Below, piece after piece: positions 178 through 55,172 of a stretch of DNA of 55,369 bases. The translations under genes were made by a program, and so were the position numbers. Location of the stretch: positions 1-55,369 of the forward strand of contig JAGVBZ010000017.1 of assembly GCA_020059465.1 (NCBI GenBank), in the 5' to 3' direction. Numbering within the stretch: the stretch's first letter is position 1; every line of letters starts with the position of its first letter. The DNA is from Brevinematales bacterium. GTDB taxonomy: Bacteria; Spirochaetota; Brevinematia; Brevinematales; GWF1-51-8. The notes beneath the pieces are model-generated. The model saw only the letters and a program-made list of their open reading frames with translations. It ran no database searches and had not been told where the DNA came from.

Positions 178-750
178 TTATCTTTCCATTCTTCCAATAG
201 TAAGTTCTTTGAAAACATTTACTAAATTTAATATTTGCCCATACCCTCTCCCTTCCTCATAGTTAATAGCTTTTCTTTGACACGAGATTACATGCCATGA
301 GTTTCCTTCAAGTCTACTTATAAATAATGATAAATCAAACACATCCCATTCTTTTAATCCAGTTACCTTTGCAAATTTCTTTTCAACATATTCATAGTTT
401 GTTTCATATTTCGATTTTGGTCGATAATCATGATACTTTATTAAAAAATTGACTTTAAAAATATAAGAAATTGGAGTTTCATAATCTTCTATTTTATAAT
501 CTTTTATTAATAGACAGATTTTATCATCAAGGTCAATCAAACGTGCATTATCAAATATATTTCTCTCGCTAAATACCTTTTTTAACTCATCAAACCATTC
601 TACTACCCTATAATAGATTAATTCAAGTCGATACTTTTTTGTCTTTTTATAAGTATATTCCTTGATTCGTGGAATAAATAGAAGTATAGCAATAAAACCG
701 CCCAAACCACCAAGAATAGTAAAAACTAGTATAATAGTATTATTATCCAA
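178..750 (-). CDS. AT-rich hypothetical protein with one N-terminal membrane segment
   Basis: I do not recognise this 190-residue protein. Residues about 6-27 form a hydrophobic membrane anchor, followed by a basic stretch (YKKTKKYR), so the rest is probably cytoplasmic. The remainder is rich in Lys, Tyr, Glu and Ile with no motif I can name. The start is a TTG at 750 with an AGGA about eight bases upstream. The gene is clearly more AT-rich than the GC-rich DUF2207 gene beside it and is separated from it by a block of inverted repeats, which suggests horizontal acquisition. That it is a real gene rests on length, start site and the downstream terminator. Confidence 0.6.
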   Translation of the reverse strand: MDNNTIILVFTILGGLGGFIAILLFIPRIKEYTYKKTKKYRLELIYYRVVEWFDELKKVFSERNIFDNARLIDLDDKICLLIKDYKIEDYETPISYIFKVNFLIKYHDYRPKSKYETNYEYVEKKFAKVTGLKEWDVFDLSLFISRLEGNSWHVISCQRKAINYEEGRGYGQILNLVNVFKELTIGRMER

Positions 751-35570: not shown

Positions 35571-35965
35571 ACAACACCTCTCTCTATTCCACCGTCGTCC
35601 TTCACCGAAACAGGATGGCCTTCGGAATCCACCGCGACCATCGTAAACCGCGCGTCCGCCACATCGAACATTTCCCCCGTCCGAAGTTTTTCCGCGCGGA
35701 TACAGATTTCCACATCCATCGACGTACGGCCGACCCTAGTGATCCGGCCGTTCATTTCCACCATATCGCCTATCTTAACCGGCGCTTTAAAGTTGATCTC
35801 GTTCACACGCGCGGTCACCACATTCTTCCGGCTGAAACGGCTCGCAATAAGATACGCGAGATTATCCGCGGCATGCATGATCTCGCCGCCGTGCACGTTC
35901 CCGTAATGGTTGGCCTCACGGGGCATGACCACAAACCGGTTGGAAAGGGCTGCTTCTTCTATCAT
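35567..35965 (-). CDS. Hotdog-fold acyl-CoA thioesterase (YciA/BACH type)
   Basis: The 132-residue protein matches the acyl-CoA thioester hydrolase group: MPREANHYGNVHGGEIMHAAD contains the catalytic Asn/His region, and VNFKAPV-type sequence (EINFKAPVKIGDMVEMNGRI) is the next hotdog strand set. It hydrolyses acyl-CoA in the cytoplasm; chain preference cannot be read. It sits between purL and hisG with four-base overlaps on both sides. Confidence 0.92.
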   Translation of the reverse strand: MIEEAALSNRFVVMPREANHYGNVHGGEIMHAADNLAYLIASRFSRKNVVTARVNEINFKAPVKIGDMVEMNGRITRVGRTSMDVEICIRAEKLRTGEMFDVADARFTMVAVDSEGHPVSVKDDGGIERGVV

Positions 35966-38175
35966 TCTTCGATATACCTCGTATTGTATGATTTTACAGC
36001 ATCGTCGATGCCGGCATCTATCAACGTTTTACCCTTTACTCGAATGACTATTTTCCTATCTGCGGTGACTTCGCCGATTTCCGTAAGCGGAATATCGTAT
36101 GATACGCAAAGTTCCTTCAATACATCCAAATTCGCCTTATCGTTCGCCGGATAGGAAATCAGGATACGAGACTGGGTTTCCCCGAAAAGAAGCGCATCGA
36201 GCGGGATATCGTCCTGAAGATCGAGTGACGCGCCGAGCCTCTTCGAGTTGACCGCGCATTCGCTCACCGCAACCGCGAGGCCGCCGTCGGAAATATCCTG
36301 TACGGAATGCACCCGCTGCTGCGCGATCAGCGCGCGAATCAATTTCTGGAGCCGCACTTCCGTATCAATATCGAGAGACGGGCATTCCCCGATCACCTTT
36401 CCGGCATATTTGGTCAGAAACAGGCTCCCGCCGATCTCGTTCTTATTTGTTCCGAGCATGGCGATCTTGTCCCCTGCCTTTTTAAACCCGTTAAACATCG
36501 AAAGGTTATAATCGTCGATCACACCGACAGCGCCTACAACAATCGTGGGCAATATCGGCTCGCCGTCGGTCTCGTTATATAATGAGGCGTTCCCCCCTGT
36601 CACAGGGGCTTCGAGTTTCCGGCACGCCTCGCCCATCCCCTCGATAGCCTTCACCATCTGGTAGTACGGCATCGGTTTCTCCGGGTTGCCGAAGTTCAGA
36701 CAGTTCGTGATCCCGTAAGGCTCTGCGCCCATGCATGAAATATTCCGGCATGCCTCCGCGACCGCCTGCATCCCTCCGGTGTACGGGTCGAGATAGGTAT
36801 AACGCCCGTTCCCGTCGGTGGATATCGCGATCCCCTTGGTCGTGCCCTTGACACGGAGCATCGCGCCCCCGGCCATCACCGGCTCGGCCAGCAGGTTCGT
36901 CTGGACATGATGATCGTACCGTTCGTACACCCACTCTTTCGATGCGATATTCGGGTCGGAAAGCAGTTCGAGCAGTACCTGCTTATATGAGGGAATTTTA
37001 TAATCTGGTATCTTCTTCACCTGATCGAGGTATTCGGGACGGATCATATCGCGGACGTAAAGCGGCACGTCATGCACGAGCGGGCGGAGCGGCAGATCGA
37101 CCACCGTCTTCCCATGCTCGCGCACAATCACCCTCGGATTATCGGTCACAGGGGACGCGACCTTCCCGATAACGGCATGATCCAGTTCGTACTTATTGAT
37201 TACTTCGATTACCTTGTTCAGCATCTTCGGTTCGACGGTCGCAAGCATACGCTCCTGACTTTCGGAGAGGAGAAACTCGTATGCGGACATATTCTGCTCG
37301 CGCGCCGGAACTTTATCGATATCCAGTTCTATCGTCGAATTACCGCGCGCGGCCATTTCGCAAGAGGAACTCGTGATTCCCGCGGCGCCCATATCCTGAA
37401 CACCGACAACGAGCTTTTTATCGATCAGTTCGAGAGTAGCCTCGAGGATGAGTTTCTCGGTGAACGCGTCTCCGACCTGTACCGACGGGCGTTTGTCCTC
37501 ACCCTCGCTGGAGAGTTCCGCCGACGCGAAGGTCGCTCCGCCCAGTCCGTCCCGGCCCGTCTTCGAGCCGTAGTAGAACAGCAGGTTGCCCTCGCCGATA
37601 GCCGTCGCCTTACAGATACCGTCCTTCTTCGCCAATCCGACGCACATGACGTTGACAAGGGGATTGCCCTCGTAGGAGTCCTCGAATACGAGTTCTCCGG
37701 CGACAGTGGGAACACCCACCCGGTTGCCGTAGTCGCTGATGCCCGCGATCACGCCGCCTACCAAGTAACGGGTGCGTTTCGAATCGCGCCGCCCGAACCT
37801 CAGCGAATCGACCATAGCGATAGGCATCGCCCCCATCGCAAATATATCGCGGAGGATACCTCCGACACCGGTGGCCGCGCCCTCGTAAGGCTCCACCGCC
37901 GACGGGTGGTTGTGGCTCTCGATCTTAAAGACGATCGCGTAGTCGTCGAAACCGACCACCCCCGCGTTCTCGCCCGGCCCCTGTATGATATGTCTGCCGG
38001 TTGTCGGGAGTTTCTTCAGCATGGGCTTGGTATTCTTATACCCGCAATGCTCGCTCCATAGCGCGCCGAACACCCCGAGTTCTTCGACGGTCGGTTTGCG
38101 TTCGAGAAGTTTCTCTATCAGTTGAATCTCGTTTTTCGATAGTCCGGAAAATTCGACGGCACGTTCGAAGGTCAT
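35962..38175 (-). CDS. purL: Phosphoribosylformylglycinamidine synthase subunit II
   Basis: The 737-residue synthetase subunit acts in purine synthesis, turning FGAR into FGAM with ammonia from PurQ. Motifs include the N-terminal ALWSEHCGYKNTK, KIESHNHPSAVEPYEGAATGVGG and GDFGVP-type ATP loops in both halves. Size fits the small PurL that works with separate PurQ and PurS, neither of which is nearby. It is the first gene of an eight-gene leftward run in which every neighbour overlaps or nearly so. The start lies 45 bases left of an AT-rich insert that may have displaced its original upstream region. Confidence 0.97.
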   Translation of the reverse strand: MTFERAVEFSGLSKNEIQLIEKLLERKPTVEELGVFGALWSEHCGYKNTKPMLKKLPTTGRHIIQGPGENAGVVGFDDYAIVFKIESHNHPSAVEPYEGAATGVGGILRDIFAMGAMPIAMVDSLRFGRRDSKRTRYLVGGVIAGISDYGNRVGVPTVAGELVFEDSYEGNPLVNVMCVGLAKKDGICKATAIGEGNLLFYYGSKTGRDGLGGATFASAELSSEGEDKRPSVQVGDAFTEKLILEATLELIDKKLVVGVQDMGAAGITSSSCEMAARGNSTIELDIDKVPAREQNMSAYEFLLSESQERMLATVEPKMLNKVIEVINKYELDHAVIGKVASPVTDNPRVIVREHGKTVVDLPLRPLVHDVPLYVRDMIRPEYLDQVKKIPDYKIPSYKQVLLELLSDPNIASKEWVYERYDHHVQTNLLAEPVMAGGAMLRVKGTTKGIAISTDGNGRYTYLDPYTGGMQAVAEACRNISCMGAEPYGITNCLNFGNPEKPMPYYQMVKAIEGMGEACRKLEAPVTGGNASLYNETDGEPILPTIVVGAVGVIDDYNLSMFNGFKKAGDKIAMLGTNKNEIGGSLFLTKYAGKVIGECPSLDIDTEVRLQKLIRALIAQQRVHSVQDISDGGLAVAVSECAVNSKRLGASLDLQDDIPLDALLFGETQSRILISYPANDKANLDVLKELCVSYDIPLTEIGEVTADRKIVIRVKGKTLIDAGIDDAVKSYNTRYIEE

Positions 38176-38219
38176 TGGGTGACTCCTAAGATTGATGGAA
38201 TATTATAAAGGAAAACGTC

Positions 38220-38234
38220 GGGTATCGCAAGGTA
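38220..38234. repeat. Left copy of 15-bp direct repeat
   Basis: GGGTATCGCAAGGTA occurs here and again at 39222-39236, bounding the AT-rich gene at 38257-39141. The distance between copies is 1002 bases. The first ten bases after G (GGTATCGCAA) also occur at the right end of the MITE-like repeat at 21361-21370. Confidence 0.7.
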
Positions 38235-38256
38235 TGGAATATCGAATAGAAATCCA

Positions 38257-39141
38257 CTAATTATCTAACATTGACTGTATTGCTTTCTTTAAGTCATTCT
38301 CCATTTTTCGCAAACCTTCACCATTGTTCATATAATACAAGTATCTATGGTGCTGTAAATCAAATGGAATATCTTCTTTGTTCTGGGTTATTGGTATAAC
38401 AATTTTTCCAAGAGTATGAGCAATACCAGCCTCATAAAAAACATTTGAATTACGTTTTGAACAGTCTATTATTACTATTCTTGAACAATAAATTAATTCA
38501 AAAATATCTTGTATAATTGTAGGATTTTTCCAAATATCATCTGCTCTTTTACAGTCTAAACTTAAATCATTACAGACACTTTTTATTGCGGTATATACAT
38601 CATCGAATTCTTTATTAAAAGGCATCATTACAGAAGCAAGTAAATTATCGATTTCTTTATCCGGTTTTTTAAAAACTAAAGGATTAATAATATAAATATC
38701 GCTTTTATGGTAATCTTGGTTTTTAAATGGTAAATCCGTATTATCTAATGAAAAAAGTGAAACACTATTATTCTTGATATTTTTTACTATTGCTAAATTT
38801 TGGGTCTTTAATAATTCGTTAATTTTATTTATTGCCTTATTTTGATTAAATTGCGTTGTTGATTGTTTTGGAATAAAATAAATTGGATTTAATAGATTTT
38901 CAATTATATTTTTTATTCCTAAGGATGGTAAATTTGGACTAATTTCAGGTAAATTATTTTGTATTTCTAAAACATTTTGAACCCACCATCTTCTAGTTGA
39001 TCCATCATGTGTATAGTCTAGATCTATATCTTTAAAAAACTGAGTTAAATAAGAAGATGAACGGTATGGGAAAACACTATCTGGAAAATCCCCGCAAATC
39101 ATCAGAGCTATTTGACCTAAAATACTTGCTTTTATTTTCAT
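38257..39141 (-). CDS. AT-rich protein with nucleoside deoxyribosyltransferase/TIR-like C-terminal domain
   Basis: The 294-residue protein has an unrecognised N-terminal half (about 1-150) and a C-terminal domain (about 165-290) with SVMMPFNKEFDDVYTAIK, CKRADDIW, IYCSRIVIIDCSKRNSNVFYEAGIAHTLGK and ITQNKEDIPFDLQHHRYLYY. That pattern belongs to the nucleoside 2-deoxyribosyltransferase-like group, relatives of TIR domains; the Glu in NVFYEAGIAH sits where the catalytic Glu is expected. Such proteins can split NAD or nucleotides and often occur in immunity genes, but activity here is an inference. Base composition is far more AT-rich than the flanking genes, and a 15-bp direct repeat bounds the gene. 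Confidence 0.75.
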   Translation of the reverse strand: MKIKASILGQIALMICGDFPDSVFPYRSSSYLTQFFKDIDLDYTHDGSTRRWWVQNVLEIQNNLPEISPNLPSLGIKNIIENLLNPIYFIPKQSTTQFNQNKAINKINELLKTQNLAIVKNIKNNSVSLFSLDNTDLPFKNQDYHKSDIYIINPLVFKKPDKEIDNLLASVMMPFNKEFDDVYTAIKSVCNDLSLDCKRADDIWKNPTIIQDIFELIYCSRIVIIDCSKRNSNVFYEAGIAHTLGKIVIPITQNKEDIPFDLQHHRYLYYMNNGEGLRKMENDLKKAIQSMLDN

Positions 39142-39475
39142 TTTGGTAGTCTCAAAATGAATATTTTTGTTTTCATAGTTGCTCCCATACCCAACGATAA
39201 TTAATTATAATAGAATACTGTGGGTATCGCAAGGTACTGCGCGCAGTACGTACGGGCTGATACCGATATTTGGCTGAGAGAGATTATCCAGTATTAGCCC
39301 GGGATGAAAAAGGCGCTGCGTGGGCTGATAGGTCAGCAATGCATCATTTGAGTTTTATTTTTCTAGGCGTAACCGGAGCTATGTTTGATTGTTTTCCTTT
39401 ATTTTTATATAATATTTCCAAAGATGCGTTTTTATACACTTTTATATTTCATTCAATATCAATCAGGAGTGCGAG
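39142..39475. other. Intergenic region with repeat copy, palindrome and pairable RNA segments
   Basis: No gene is supported in these 334 bases. The left part is the upstream region of the AT-rich gene. Then come the second 15-bp repeat copy (39222-39236), a perfect 16-bp palindrome (39234-39249), and three mutually pairable 9-base segments (39254-39262, 39292-39300, 39322-39330). The right part is AT-rich and probably holds the promoter of the hydrolase gene at 39476. Confidence 0.6.
39222..39236. repeat. Right copy of 15-bp direct repeat
   Basis: Identical to 38220-38234. Its last three bases overlap a perfect 16-bp palindrome, GTACTGCGCGCAGTAC at 39234-39249, which the left copy lacks. Confidence 0.7.
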
Positions 39476-40291
39476 ATGCCCAACACAAAACTGGAGTATA
39501 AGATTTCTTCCAACGGAATACCATATGTAAAATGGGGCAGCGGAAAAAAAACTATGCTGATTTTCGCTGGCGGCCCCGGGAACAGCCTGCCGAAAGGCTT
39601 CGGATTCCGCATGATGGTCGGAAAACTGGATAGCTTAACCGGCGATTATACCATGTATATGGCGATGCGAAAACAGGGCCTTAAACCGGGAGCGACAACC
39701 CGCGATCTTTCGGACGATTACGCCGAGATGGTGAAAAACGACTTTAACGGATATGTAGATACTGTGATCGGGATGTCGTTCGGGGGAATGACGGTGCAGT
39801 ATTTTGCCGCCGATCACCCGGAATGCTTCAAACATGCCGTAATCGCGTTAGCGGCGTATAGAATGAGCGAACAGGGAAGAAAGCTCGATATGGATTTCGC
39901 CCGTCTGGTCGCTATAGGGAAAAAACGGGAAGCCGCCTGTAAAATGATGGGCACTCTCGGTAAAAAAGGAATCGGGGGAGTATTCGTGAAAGCGATGGCT
40001 TGGCTTTTCGGAGGTACGATGTTCAAAGGGGAGTATGCCGCGTTCAACAGTGATATTATTATCGAGGCGGAAGCGGAAAATACCCATAACGCAAGGGAAG
40101 CGCTCGGCAGAATAAACGTACCGGTACTGATCGTTGGAGGTACGGCGGATTATTATTTCCCGGAGGAAAATATGCGGGAAACCCATCGCCTGATAAAGAA
40201 TTCGACGTTAAAACTCTATGAGGGAAAAGGGCATATCGATACTCTATCGGATAAGCGGTTTGTCCGCGATCTTAGGGAGTTTATCGGATAA
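39476..40291 (+). CDS. Alpha/beta hydrolase
   Basis: The 271-residue protein has the alpha/beta-hydrolase nucleophile elbow GMSFGGM (Ser about residue 102), an oxyanion stretch FAGGPGNSLPKGF near the N-terminus, the Asp region VLIVGGTADYYFP and the His region GKGHIDTL near the end. No signal peptide is seen, so it is cytoplasmic. The substrate is unknown; esterase, lipase-like or C-C hydrolase activities are possible. AGGAG lies six bases before the ATG. It is a single gene facing a minus-strand membrane protein gene. Confidence 0.88.
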   Translation: MPNTKLEYKISSNGIPYVKWGSGKKTMLIFAGGPGNSLPKGFGFRMMVGKLDSLTGDYTMYMAMRKQGLKPGATTRDLSDDYAEMVKNDFNGYVDTVIGMSFGGMTVQYFAADHPECFKHAVIALAAYRMSEQGRKLDMDFARLVAIGKKREAACKMMGTLGKKGIGGVFVKAMAWLFGGTMFKGEYAAFNSDIIIEAEAENTHNAREALGRINVPVLIVGGTADYYFPEENMRETHRLIKNSTLKLYEGKGHIDTLSDKRFVRDLREFIG

Positions 40292-50992: not shown

Positions 50993-51079
50993 ACTTCCCT
51001 CCTGAAACTTCGTCGCTAGATAATTTATCGGTTCAAAAAGCGGATAATAAATACCAAACCGTATTCCGGGTATAAAAAA

Positions 51080-51099
51080 AGGAGGCCTTTCGGCCTCCT
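51080..51099 (-). terminator. Rho-independent terminator, first of two identical hairpins
   Basis: An 8-bp stem with TTTC loop (51080-51087 with 51092-51099) is followed on the minus strand by about seven T. It lies 19 bases past the methyltransferase stop. The same 20 bases recur at 51945-51964. Confidence 0.92.
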
Positions 51100-51784: not shown

Positions 51785-51944
51785 TTTTACTCCTTTAATC
51801 GTTCTATAACCGAAAAGTATTTTAGCGTTCCCCGCGAGAAAAACCGTAAAATTCGTTTCTTGCGACGATTCATTTTTACAGACAGTAAAATAGATTATTT
51901 TTATTTATTTGTCAAATAATAAATTACATTTCATGAAATAAAAA

Positions 51945-51964
51945 AGGAGGCCTTTCGGCCTCCT
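51945..51964 (-). terminator. Rho-independent terminator after amylase, second identical hairpin
   Basis: The same 8-bp stem and TTTC loop as at 51080-51099 (51945-51952 with 51957-51964), followed on the minus strand by T-rich sequence. It lies 22 bases past the amylase stop. Confidence 0.92.
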
Positions 51965-51986: not shown

Positions 51987-54900
51987 TTATGGGTGCAGGT
52001 ATGTCCCGTCCGCACCGATTTTACCGGGTGCGGGGTTGCCGGGCAGATTGAGTACATATATGCGCATATTTCCCTGGCCGGAGCACGAGCATGAAAGTAC
52101 GCCGTTACTCACGACTTTCGTATCGCCGGTGATAGCGTCTACATAAGTCCCGTTGGGGATACCGCTGAATGTCGCGCCGCCGGAAATGGTGACCAGCACG
52201 AAGCTGTCGATACCTTTAGCCGCATCGGTGAAACGTTTCTTGAACGCCATATATCCGCTGCATCCGTCTAACGAGTATTGTCCTTTCTGGAGTGCGGGTA
52301 TTTTCTTGCGAATCTGGTTCAGACGCTGGAGATGCTTGGCAAGCGGATGATTCAGGGTATTTGCCATTGTACCGCTGGCGTTGTTCCATACGCCGTAGTC
52401 GATGACGTTTACTGAACCCTCGATATGATTACCGAAATATGCACGGCCTGTGGTGGCAAGAGGAGCGCTAGGGCCCTTATCGCAGGGCGCGCCTTTCATG
52501 AACTGGATTTCACTGCCGTAGTAGATACACGGAATACCGCGGAATGTCCAGAGGAGGCTGAAATCTTCGGCAAAATCGCCTTCGCTCCCGGCGAAACGGT
52601 TATCCGTGCCCGGGCCGTAATCGTGTGAATCCACATAACAGACGTTCCATGTCGCATCGTTGAAATAATGATCGGTACTGGTTGCCGCGTAGAACGCGCT
52701 GCCCGCTGAGCTGAAGTTCCAATGCATATGGAAGTCGATCACACCCATCCCTGACGATTTGGAATAATCGGGTGTATGATAGTTATTTCCGCTGAGATAA
52801 TGGTTGCCACTGGTGGGCTGGTTGCCCGTGCCTATACCGCACTCGTAATTATACGCGGCCTGGGCGCATTCGGCGTCTGTTCCGCTGAACGTCTGACGTT
52901 CGTTCCATGTATAGAACGGCACCGACAACGGGGCTACGCCTTTATTCCATATTTCATGTACGCGGGTGCAGACCTCGCCGAAAATATAGAAGCCCTTGGG
53001 AGCATAGTTATTCCACGCGGGCAGGAAGCGCTGGGTAAGCGTCCAGCGGCTGATATGCTTGACAGTGTCCATTCTGAACGCGTCGACGCCCATATCGATA
53101 TACTTTTTGTATGCGTTGATCAGGAACTGCTGAACATCGGTGTCTTCCGTGTTCAGGTCGATACAATCCTCGTGGATCGATCCGATCTGGCAGGTATAAT
53201 CTTCCCAGTTTTTCAGCCAGTCCTTATGGAATATTTTAGGATTGAACAGTTTCAGGTTCGGCCACTGGTAATTATAGCACTTATAACCCTCGGGGCTATA
53301 GTAACCTGAAGGCAGGCCCCAGCCGGAAAGGCTGTCCCACGCGAGGTTGGGTTTGGTTTTAGTCCAAAGATCGCCGTTATAATAGTTTTTGCCGGAAATA
53401 GGTTCATAACTTTTTCCGTCATAGACGAAGTTGGGATTGGGAACATCGTAATAATCGATAGTTGTGCCGTCGCCCCACTGGGGATCGGCGGAATCGCCCC
53501 AATACTTCACGGTCTGAAGGCCGACCGCGCCGAAACGTGAGGTATGATTGATAACTATGTCCTGTATCACTTTAAGTCCCTTCGCATGCGCGGCGTTGAT
53601 CAGGTCCTGATAGGTCGCGCCGGGGGATTCGAGGCGGGCATCCACCTTATTGAAATCCCATGCATGATAACCGTGGAAATCGTAATCGCTTCTATTCAGC
53701 ACAACCGGGGTGATCCATACTGCGGAAAAACCTAAAGCCTTGATGTAGTCCAGTTTCTGGATGAGGCCCTTGAAGTCGCCTCTCCAACCGGGATCGTTGT
53801 TCGCCGCGTTGCCGCTGGTCACATAGCATCTGCTGGGACGGTTGTTCGCGGGATCGCCGTCATAGAAACGCGCAGTCATCAGGAAATAAATGGTTTCTTC
53901 ACGGAAATCGACACTTTTCGAAGGCGTCGGAATAGCGTTTACATAAACTATCACCTTATCGGTGGCTTTTCCGCCCTTATTATCGGTAACCGTAAGAGTC
54001 ACAGTATAGGTTCCGGCGGTGGAATAAACTTTCGACGGCGTCGCGCCGGTCAGCCCGTTATTCCATGCATAGGACGCAATAGAACCGTCGGGATCGTATG
54101 AAGCGCTTCCGTCGAAATATGCAGTCCCGCCGGGCTGGATATAAATATCATTGCCGGCATTGGCGACAGGAAGCTTATTAGTAACCGGAATCTGGTCGGG
54201 ATTGGTATCGTACCAAGTATTGTTGGCGAAATACCCCGTTTTATTCCGGGTCAGGTCTGCAGTCTGGGGAGAGCCGTTGTTATTGAAAATAAGCTTGGTG
54301 GTGGTACCGGTAAACGTATGCTTATACCACCCTGTGCCCGCTTCGGACGCGGCTGCCATCGTAATACCGGGCCATGTCGCGGTACCGCAGTCGCCGCCCC
54401 AGTAATAAACTTTTAACGTTGATGTCCATGTCGAGGGTTTTTTACAATACACAGTGAAGGTTGTTGTTACGGGAGTATCGGGGTTTGTGTCATACCACTG
54501 ATTGTTATAGAAATAACCGTTCTTACTGCGCGATAAATCCGCAGTCTGGGAATTGCCCTTATCGCTGAAAATAAGACTTGTCGTAGTGCCGGAGAACTGG
54601 AACTTATACCATCCGGTACCGGTCTCAGGTGACGCTGTCATGATCATACCGGGCCAGGTTGCGCTGCCGCAGTCGCCGCCCCAGTAATAAACATAAGGAG
54701 TATTCGCCCATGCGGTCGGTTTCTTCATATAGACTATGAGAGGATTTGTTACCGGAGCCTCAGGATTGGTGTCGTACCAAAGATTGTTAATAAAGTATCC
54801 CGTCTTACTCCGGGTCAGGTCGGCAGTCTGGGGAGAGCCGTTGTTATTGAAGATGAGCTTAGTAGTGGTGCCGGTAAAAGTAAACTTATACCAGTCCGTT

Positions 54901-55172
54901 CCAGCCTCAGTCGCCAGAGTCATAACCTGTCCGGGCCATGTCGCGGTACCGCAGTCGCCGCCCCAGTAATAAACCCGGGGAGTGTTGCCCCAGGTAGCGG
55001 GCTTTTTCAGGTAGACGACGAAAGAAGTTGTGGTCGCTTCCGAATTAACATTTTTACCCTTTGCATCATTCATTTCCAACTGGTCTTCCATGTTGGAACA
55101 GGAAAACATCAGCAAAGAAGCAAGAACCAAGGTAAAACGGGAGAGCATGTTGAAAATAATACTCTTTTTCAT
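51987..55172 (-). CDS. Lipoprotein alpha-amylase with three starch-binding modules and a PKD domain
   Basis: The 1061-residue protein has a lipoprotein signal (LMFSC, Cys25), three repeats of a starch-binding module (about 50-135, 144-229 and 239-325, each with YYWGGDCG and WYK), a PKD domain (about 334-412) and a GH13 catalytic domain (about 423-1000). Catalytic residues are visible: nucleophile Asp702 in FRMDTVKH, acid/base Glu733 in IFGEVC and Asp851 in VDSHDYG. The modules resemble CBM26. It should be anchored on the cell surface and degrade starch, feeding malto-oligosaccharide import (compare the ATPase at 15334-16440). GGAGG precedes the ATG. Confidence 0.95.
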   Translation of the reverse strand: MKKSIIFNMLSRFTLVLASLLMFSCSNMEDQLEMNDAKGKNVNSEATTTSFVVYLKKPATWGNTPRVYYWGGDCGTATWPGQVMTLATEAGTDWYKFTFTGTTTKLIFNNNGSPQTADLTRSKTGYFINNLWYDTNPEAPVTNPLIVYMKKPTAWANTPYVYYWGGDCGSATWPGMIMTASPETGTGWYKFQFSGTTTSLIFSDKGNSQTADLSRSKNGYFYNNQWYDTNPDTPVTTTFTVYCKKPSTWTSTLKVYYWGGDCGTATWPGITMAAASEAGTGWYKHTFTGTTTKLIFNNNGSPQTADLTRNKTGYFANNTWYDTNPDQIPVTNKLPVANAGNDIYIQPGGTAYFDGSASYDPDGSIASYAWNNGLTGATPSKVYSTAGTYTVTLTVTDNKGGKATDKVIVYVNAIPTPSKSVDFREETIYFLMTARFYDGDPANNRPSRCYVTSGNAANNDPGWRGDFKGLIQKLDYIKALGFSAVWITPVVLNRSDYDFHGYHAWDFNKVDARLESPGATYQDLINAAHAKGLKVIQDIVINHTSRFGAVGLQTVKYWGDSADPQWGDGTTIDYYDVPNPNFVYDGKSYEPISGKNYYNGDLWTKTKPNLAWDSLSGWGLPSGYYSPEGYKCYNYQWPNLKLFNPKIFHKDWLKNWEDYTCQIGSIHEDCIDLNTEDTDVQQFLINAYKKYIDMGVDAFRMDTVKHISRWTLTQRFLPAWNNYAPKGFYIFGEVCTRVHEIWNKGVAPLSVPFYTWNERQTFSGTDAECAQAAYNYECGIGTGNQPTSGNHYLSGNNYHTPDYSKSSGMGVIDFHMHWNFSSAGSAFYAATSTDHYFNDATWNVCYVDSHDYGPGTDNRFAGSEGDFAEDFSLLWTFRGIPCIYYGSEIQFMKGAPCDKGPSAPLATTGRAYFGNHIEGSVNVIDYGVWNNASGTMANTLNHPLAKHLQRLNQIRKKIPALQKGQYSLDGCSGYMAFKKRFTDAAKGIDSFVLVTISGGATFSGIPNGTYVDAITGDTKVVSNGVLSCSCSGQGNMRIYVLNLPGNPAPGKIGADGTYLHP
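54163..55023 (-). repeat. Three tandem copies of the starch-binding module coding unit
   Basis: Within the amylase gene a unit of about 285 bases occurs three times in the same frame, encoding near-identical modules. The first and third copies share long identical stretches, while the middle copy has diverged more. Such repeats are prone to change copy number by recombination. Confidence 0.85.

Follow-up and report, generated by a model that had tools for sequence, protein, structure and literature searches.

Does a gene of foreign composition that is enclosed by identical direct repeats mark the insertion of a mobile defence unit, or do the repeats have another role? The question is raised by the locus upstream of purL in a Brevinematales bacterium (GCA_020059465.1, contig JAGVBZ010000017.1); the whole stretch of DNA analyzed, 55,369 nucleotides, is called the window. 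An earlier note on this DNA had described the locus as a one-gene, AT-rich insert that could be a non-autonomous mobile defence cassette. Its description was accurate: the 15-bp sequence GGGTATCGCAAGGTA occurs there in two exact copies (coordinates in Table 1), and a single intact ORF of 294 aa stands alone between them. The G+C content of this ORF is 26.7% vs 47.7% for the window, the lowest among window ORFs of at least 150 aa, and no transposase was found at the locus in the ORF list of the window. A second very AT-rich ORF (window 178–750, minus strand, 27% G+C, 190 aa, hydrophobic N-terminus) had no Pfam match.

Table 1. Features of the purL locus in the window and integron cassettes with the same protein architecture in other genomes
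Feature	Position	Strand	Basis or remark
purL, downstream neighbour	35962–38175	-	
-10 hexamer TATAAT, purL (predicted)	38202–38207	-	17 bp from TTGCGA
33-bp direct repeat copy 1, predicted purL core promoter	38202–38234	-	82% identity to 39204–39236
Left 15-bp copy, predicted -35 region of purL promoter	38220–38234	-	TTGCGATACCC kept in congeners without the gene
294-aa AT-rich gene: AbiJ-NTD1-like domain (residues ~1–135) and NDT/TIR-like domain (~150–294), candidate catalytic Glu E237 in NVFYEAGIAH	38257–39141	-	ORF, domain searches, structure model, Foldseek
12-codon leader ORF (MKTKIFILRLPK, then TGA)	39138–39176	-	GGGAG ribosome-binding-like site before; TGA overlaps ATG of the gene; read from sequence
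-10 hexamer TATAAT, AT-rich gene (predicted)	39204–39209	-	17 bp from TTGCGA
33-bp direct repeat copy 2, predicted core promoter of AT-rich gene	39204–39236	-	
Right 15-bp copy (TACCTTGCGATACCC), predicted -35 region of AT-rich gene promoter	39222–39236	-	exact match, aligned promoters
Palindrome GTACTGCGCGCAGTAC and flank, directly upstream of right promoter	39230–39275		resembles short intergenic GTACGCAGTAC motif
Alpha/beta hydrolase gene, divergent neighbour	39476–40291	+	common to GWF1_51_8; unmatched in both G001 and G002
Integron cassette with AbiJ-NTD1-like/NDT gene	L113:2216–3195		Alteromonadaceae
Integron cassette with AbiJ-NTD1-like/NDT gene	L114:4929–5903		Marinobacterium
Integron cassette with AbiJ-NTD1-like/NDT gene	L105:4289–5263		Idiomarina
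Integron cassette with AbiJ-NTD1-like/NDT gene	L170:4968–5943		Vreelandella; frame broken
Integron cassette with AbiJ-NTD1-like/NDT gene	L109:4968–5940		another Alteromonadaceae bin

The C-terminus of the product matched the Pfam nucleoside 2-deoxyribosyltransferase (NDT) family PF05014 below threshold (E 0.15; 12.6 bits, cut-off 28.8) and a PADLOC TIR effector at 7.7e-6. The PADLOC TIR effector was matched by all 13 members with the same architecture. In the structure model (mean pLDDT 82), both domains were well modelled and the linker was of low confidence. Foldseek matched the C-terminal domain, which has a flavodoxin-like alpha/beta fold, to an NDT (E 3.2e-4) and also to DNPH1, TIR-APAZ, and TIR-STING structures, with TM-scores on the target that were moderate (about 0.5–0.74); a PDB sequence search with the product gave no significant match. 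The NDT/TIR-like domain named in the earlier note was thus supported. E237, which we take to be the equivalent of the NDT nucleophile Glu, lies in the motif N-V-x-Y-E-x-G-I-A-H and was invariant in 13/13 members.

No relatives were found by a single-sequence scan of genome and viral contigs; an alignment scan succeeded, and the N-terminal domain (residues 1–135) was located at 72 genome loci in many phyla. Three viral contigs carried this domain, and phage records matched the C-terminal domain only. When the C-terminal parts of the relatives were read, three types were distinguished: the NDT/TIR-like type of the window gene, a majority type with a conserved GKD...Q-x-K pattern, and a DUF4145/HEPN-like type. 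The majority type had no Pfam match and, from its sequence, looks like a PD-(D/E)XK (REase-like) nuclease. NDT-like, REase-like, and HEPN domains make up the repertoire of AbiJ-NTD1 fusion partners in the 2013 survey of the HEPN superfamily (PMC3710099). By analogy in repertoire and size (~140 aa), the N-terminal domain may be called AbiJ-NTD1-like; no AbiJ model in Pfam matched it. Plasmid relatives of the C-terminal domain adjoin restriction or caspase/TIR genes. Because the N-terminal domain is fused to three effector-like domains, and because of the PADLOC matches, the NDT/TIR folds, and these plasmid neighbours, the product is most likely a single-gene abortive-infection protein, as judged from sequences and models; a role in abortive immunity, suggested in the earlier note, is therefore probable. 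The AbiJ-NTD1-like domain would serve as sensor and restraint, and the C-terminal domain would be the toxic enzyme that, upon phage infection, hydrolyses NAD+ or a nucleoside/nucleotide, so that the cell stops.

The repeats were examined separately from the gene. Since the window holds five repeat pairs of at least 15 bp placed 300–1500 bp apart (vs 0.12 in Markov shuffles of the window), the 15-bp pair is by itself suggestive, not extraordinary. Its similarity extends to 33 bp at 82% identity, the outer flanks of the two 15-bp copies are unrelated, and neither terminal inverted repeats at the ends of the repeat-bounded unit nor a match to an Rfam RNA element were found. Exact matches to GGGTATCGCAAGGTA in the 3.19-Mb genome numbered two, both at the purL locus, and matches with two mismatches were present at about the chance number. 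A dispersed repeat family was rejected on these counts, and the same repeat with other cargo, expected from a mobile cassette, was found at no other locus in the genome. Other repeats in the window include exact direct repeats of 29 and 44 bp, 564 bp apart (54259–54974), within an amylase-like protein of 1,061 aa in which modules are repeated, and identical 25-bp terminator-like hairpins AAAAAAGGAGGCCTTTCGGCCTCCT at 51075–51099 and 51940–51964.

On the minus strand, both 15-bp copies read TACC-TTGCG-ATACCC, and TATAAT follows 17 bp downstream of TTGCGA in each. The arrangement recurs in this genome: in the 451 kb of the 3.19 Mb on which the promoter statistics are based, TTGCG preceded -10-like sites in front of genes at a spacing of 17 in 11 cases and at spacings of 16 or 18 in none, and TTGCG..ACCC-N12-TATAAT with up to two mismatches gave 29 matches vs 5 for the reversed control. 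Among 1,485 pairs drawn from 55 promoter candidates, identity at 15 positions was seen once, in the pair formed by purL and the AT-rich gene (runner-up 13). Two congeners without the gene at purL, G001 and G002, carry TTGCGATACCC-N12-TATAAT once each, in the purL promoter, from which it follows that the left copy belongs to the native purL promoter. From these comparisons, purL and the AT-rich gene have sigma70-type promoters that align with each other, and the 15-bp repeats are their predicted -35 regions; the proposal that the repeats are the ends of a mobile unit was not supported. A duplicated core promoter would be their likeliest origin, because the identity of the copies exceeds the promoter consensus. 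As a side observation, GTACGCAGTAC, often after TTTAGCC, is a short intergenic motif just upstream of the -35 in several promoters of this genome (L077:17555, L079:13290, L086 and L093 on the minus strand, L095:92, and the palindromic region of the window locus); it may be a regulatory element or a dispersed repeat of small size.

The earlier note proposed to look for relatives that lack the gene and have one copy of the repeat; G001 and G002 have one copy, in the purL promoter, but the closest gene-less congener is also devoid of the adjacent hydrolase gene, so a clean, precise excision is not indicated. Neither G001 nor G002 is a clean empty site, because the hydrolase gene is absent from G002 as well and the contig of G001 ends 193 bp before purL. 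In a divergent congener, Spirochaetes bacterium GWF1_51_8 (G003), the gene (68% aa identity) occupies this site in the same orientation, between the promoters TTGCGCTACCC (purL) and TTGCGCAACCC. These are diverged versions of both window promoters, in which TTGCG..ACCC is retained and other positions have diverged. Proteins encoded next to the gene are 60–83% identical between the two genomes (hydrolase 60%, GNAT 63%, glgC 72%, purL 83%), so that the divergence of the gene is what a resident would show. It thus appears from the sequences to be an old resident of the genus and not a recent insertion. TTCCATACC, beside the left copy, is common to both carriers, unlike the non-carriers.

The N-terminal domain was matched strongly in 2 of 393 Spirochaetota genomes, namely the window genome and GWF1_51_8, and the closest matches outside these two were mostly from Gammaproteobacteria (46–48%). 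Because of this distribution, we infer that the gene arrived in the genus horizontally, followed by loss or patchy presence. Two separate insertions at one hotspot, in place of one acquisition, are a remote possibility.

The reading that we consider probable is that the AT-rich gene encodes a horizontally acquired single-gene defence protein at purL, and that the repeats are a duplicated purL core promoter, not the ends of a mobile element. The gene would predate the split between those two species that are the most divergent ones sampled in the genus. The purL core promoter would have been duplicated as the gene settled upstream of purL, where its own sigma70-type promoter would drive it, and promoter function would have kept the copies alike. 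A target-site duplication by a non-autonomous mobile cassette, in which the gene with its -10 entered the purL promoter and 15 bp including the -35 were doubled, each gene keeping a promoter, is unlikely. The exact copies, the unrelated outer flanks, the foreign composition, and the single gene agree with it, as does the promoter function of both copies, and in sequence a target-site duplication that contains the -35 looks the same as a promoter duplication; yet the unit has no terminal inverted repeats, the similarity runs beyond 15 bp, the genome holds no further copy of the repeat, and the gene has long been resident in the genus. It is likewise doubtful that nothing was duplicated and that the two promoters are alike through a -35 habit of the genus or a common regulator. 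TTGCG at spacing 17 is indeed a recurrent -35 here, and its conservation with ACCC in both GWF1_51_8 promoters despite divergence elsewhere agrees with such a habit. However, TACC and ATACCC, which both copies share, do not belong to the surrounding consensus, as the latter is AT-rich, and full identity was confined to one promoter pair. That defence genes enter the genus by an insertion independent of any known transposase or integrase and copying the core promoter of the target, both genes staying expressed, is improbable.

Even less credit is given to the gene being the toxin of a toxin-antitoxin pair. In GWF1_51_8, a 73-aa DUF2281/VapB-like ORF (L045:8955–9176) takes the place of the leader ORF and overlaps the gene start by ATGA, the same type of overlap as in the window; against a paired function, the window copy is intact without the VapB-like ORF, and inspection of 13 loci outside Spirochaetota revealed no conserved partner.

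At no fewer than five loci of marine Gammaproteobacteria, the AbiJ-NTD1-like/NDT architecture was found as a stretch of homology of ~970–980 bp that ends at attC-type cores (GTTACGT ... GCGTTA) with differing flanking genes (Table 1), and therefore the protein travels there alone as an integron cassette. The Alteromonadaceae (L113) and Marinobacterium cassettes were 99% identical from core to core, and two other loci (L107 and L110) had attC-like ends 3' of their genes. The description as a one-gene mobile defence cassette is consequently true of the family; at the window locus, the part of that proposal in which the repeats delimit the unit was not supported. The attC scan required exactly complementary cores and missed cassette sites read by eye, so the negative result at the window gene is a reading of its 3' flank, in which no attC was seen. 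Integron integrases above the TIGR02249 cut-off were found in 0/4 congeners, where tyrosine-recombinase matches were sub-threshold only, as in 14/14 control genomes. A relic of an integron cassette with a decayed attC is therefore highly improbable at purL, despite the gammaproteobacterial cassettes and their gene end TAACAAG, which the GWF1_51_8 gene has as well, as the repeats also lack a GTT core and the left one is native to gene-less purL promoters.

Among known systems, the protein is closest in plan to the AbiJ-NTD1-NDT fusion (PMC3710099), with which it has in common an N-terminal domain of ~140 aa whose relatives are fused to NDT-like, REase-like, and HEPN (DUF4145-like) domains; the likeness is one of repertoire and size, and the flanking promoter repeats are local to the window locus. 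Anti-phage cassettes borne by integrons (Darracq 2025, Getz 2025, and Kieffer 2025, as cited in PMC12444791 and PMC12409362) resemble the one-gene cassettes of Alteromonadaceae, Marinobacterium, Idiomarina, and Vreelandella, and the cassette mobility of the family is in keeping with the work cited in those two papers; the window locus differs from such cassettes by having no attC, array, or integron integrase above the cut-off. SpbK, a TIR-domain single-protein defence (PMC12847820), similarly combines a sensor part and a TIR/NDT-fold enzyme in one polypeptide with predicted abortive infection; the window protein differs in its N-terminal domain, and the structure search placed its C-terminal domain nearest to NDT/DNPH1.

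The locus gives reason for caution, as a foreign gene can be flanked by direct repeats that are paired promoters and not insertion scars. The gene would be a spirochaete representative of a one-gene defence family that is poorly characterised; in marine bacteria, integron cassettes carry its AbiJ-NTD1-like/NDT architecture.
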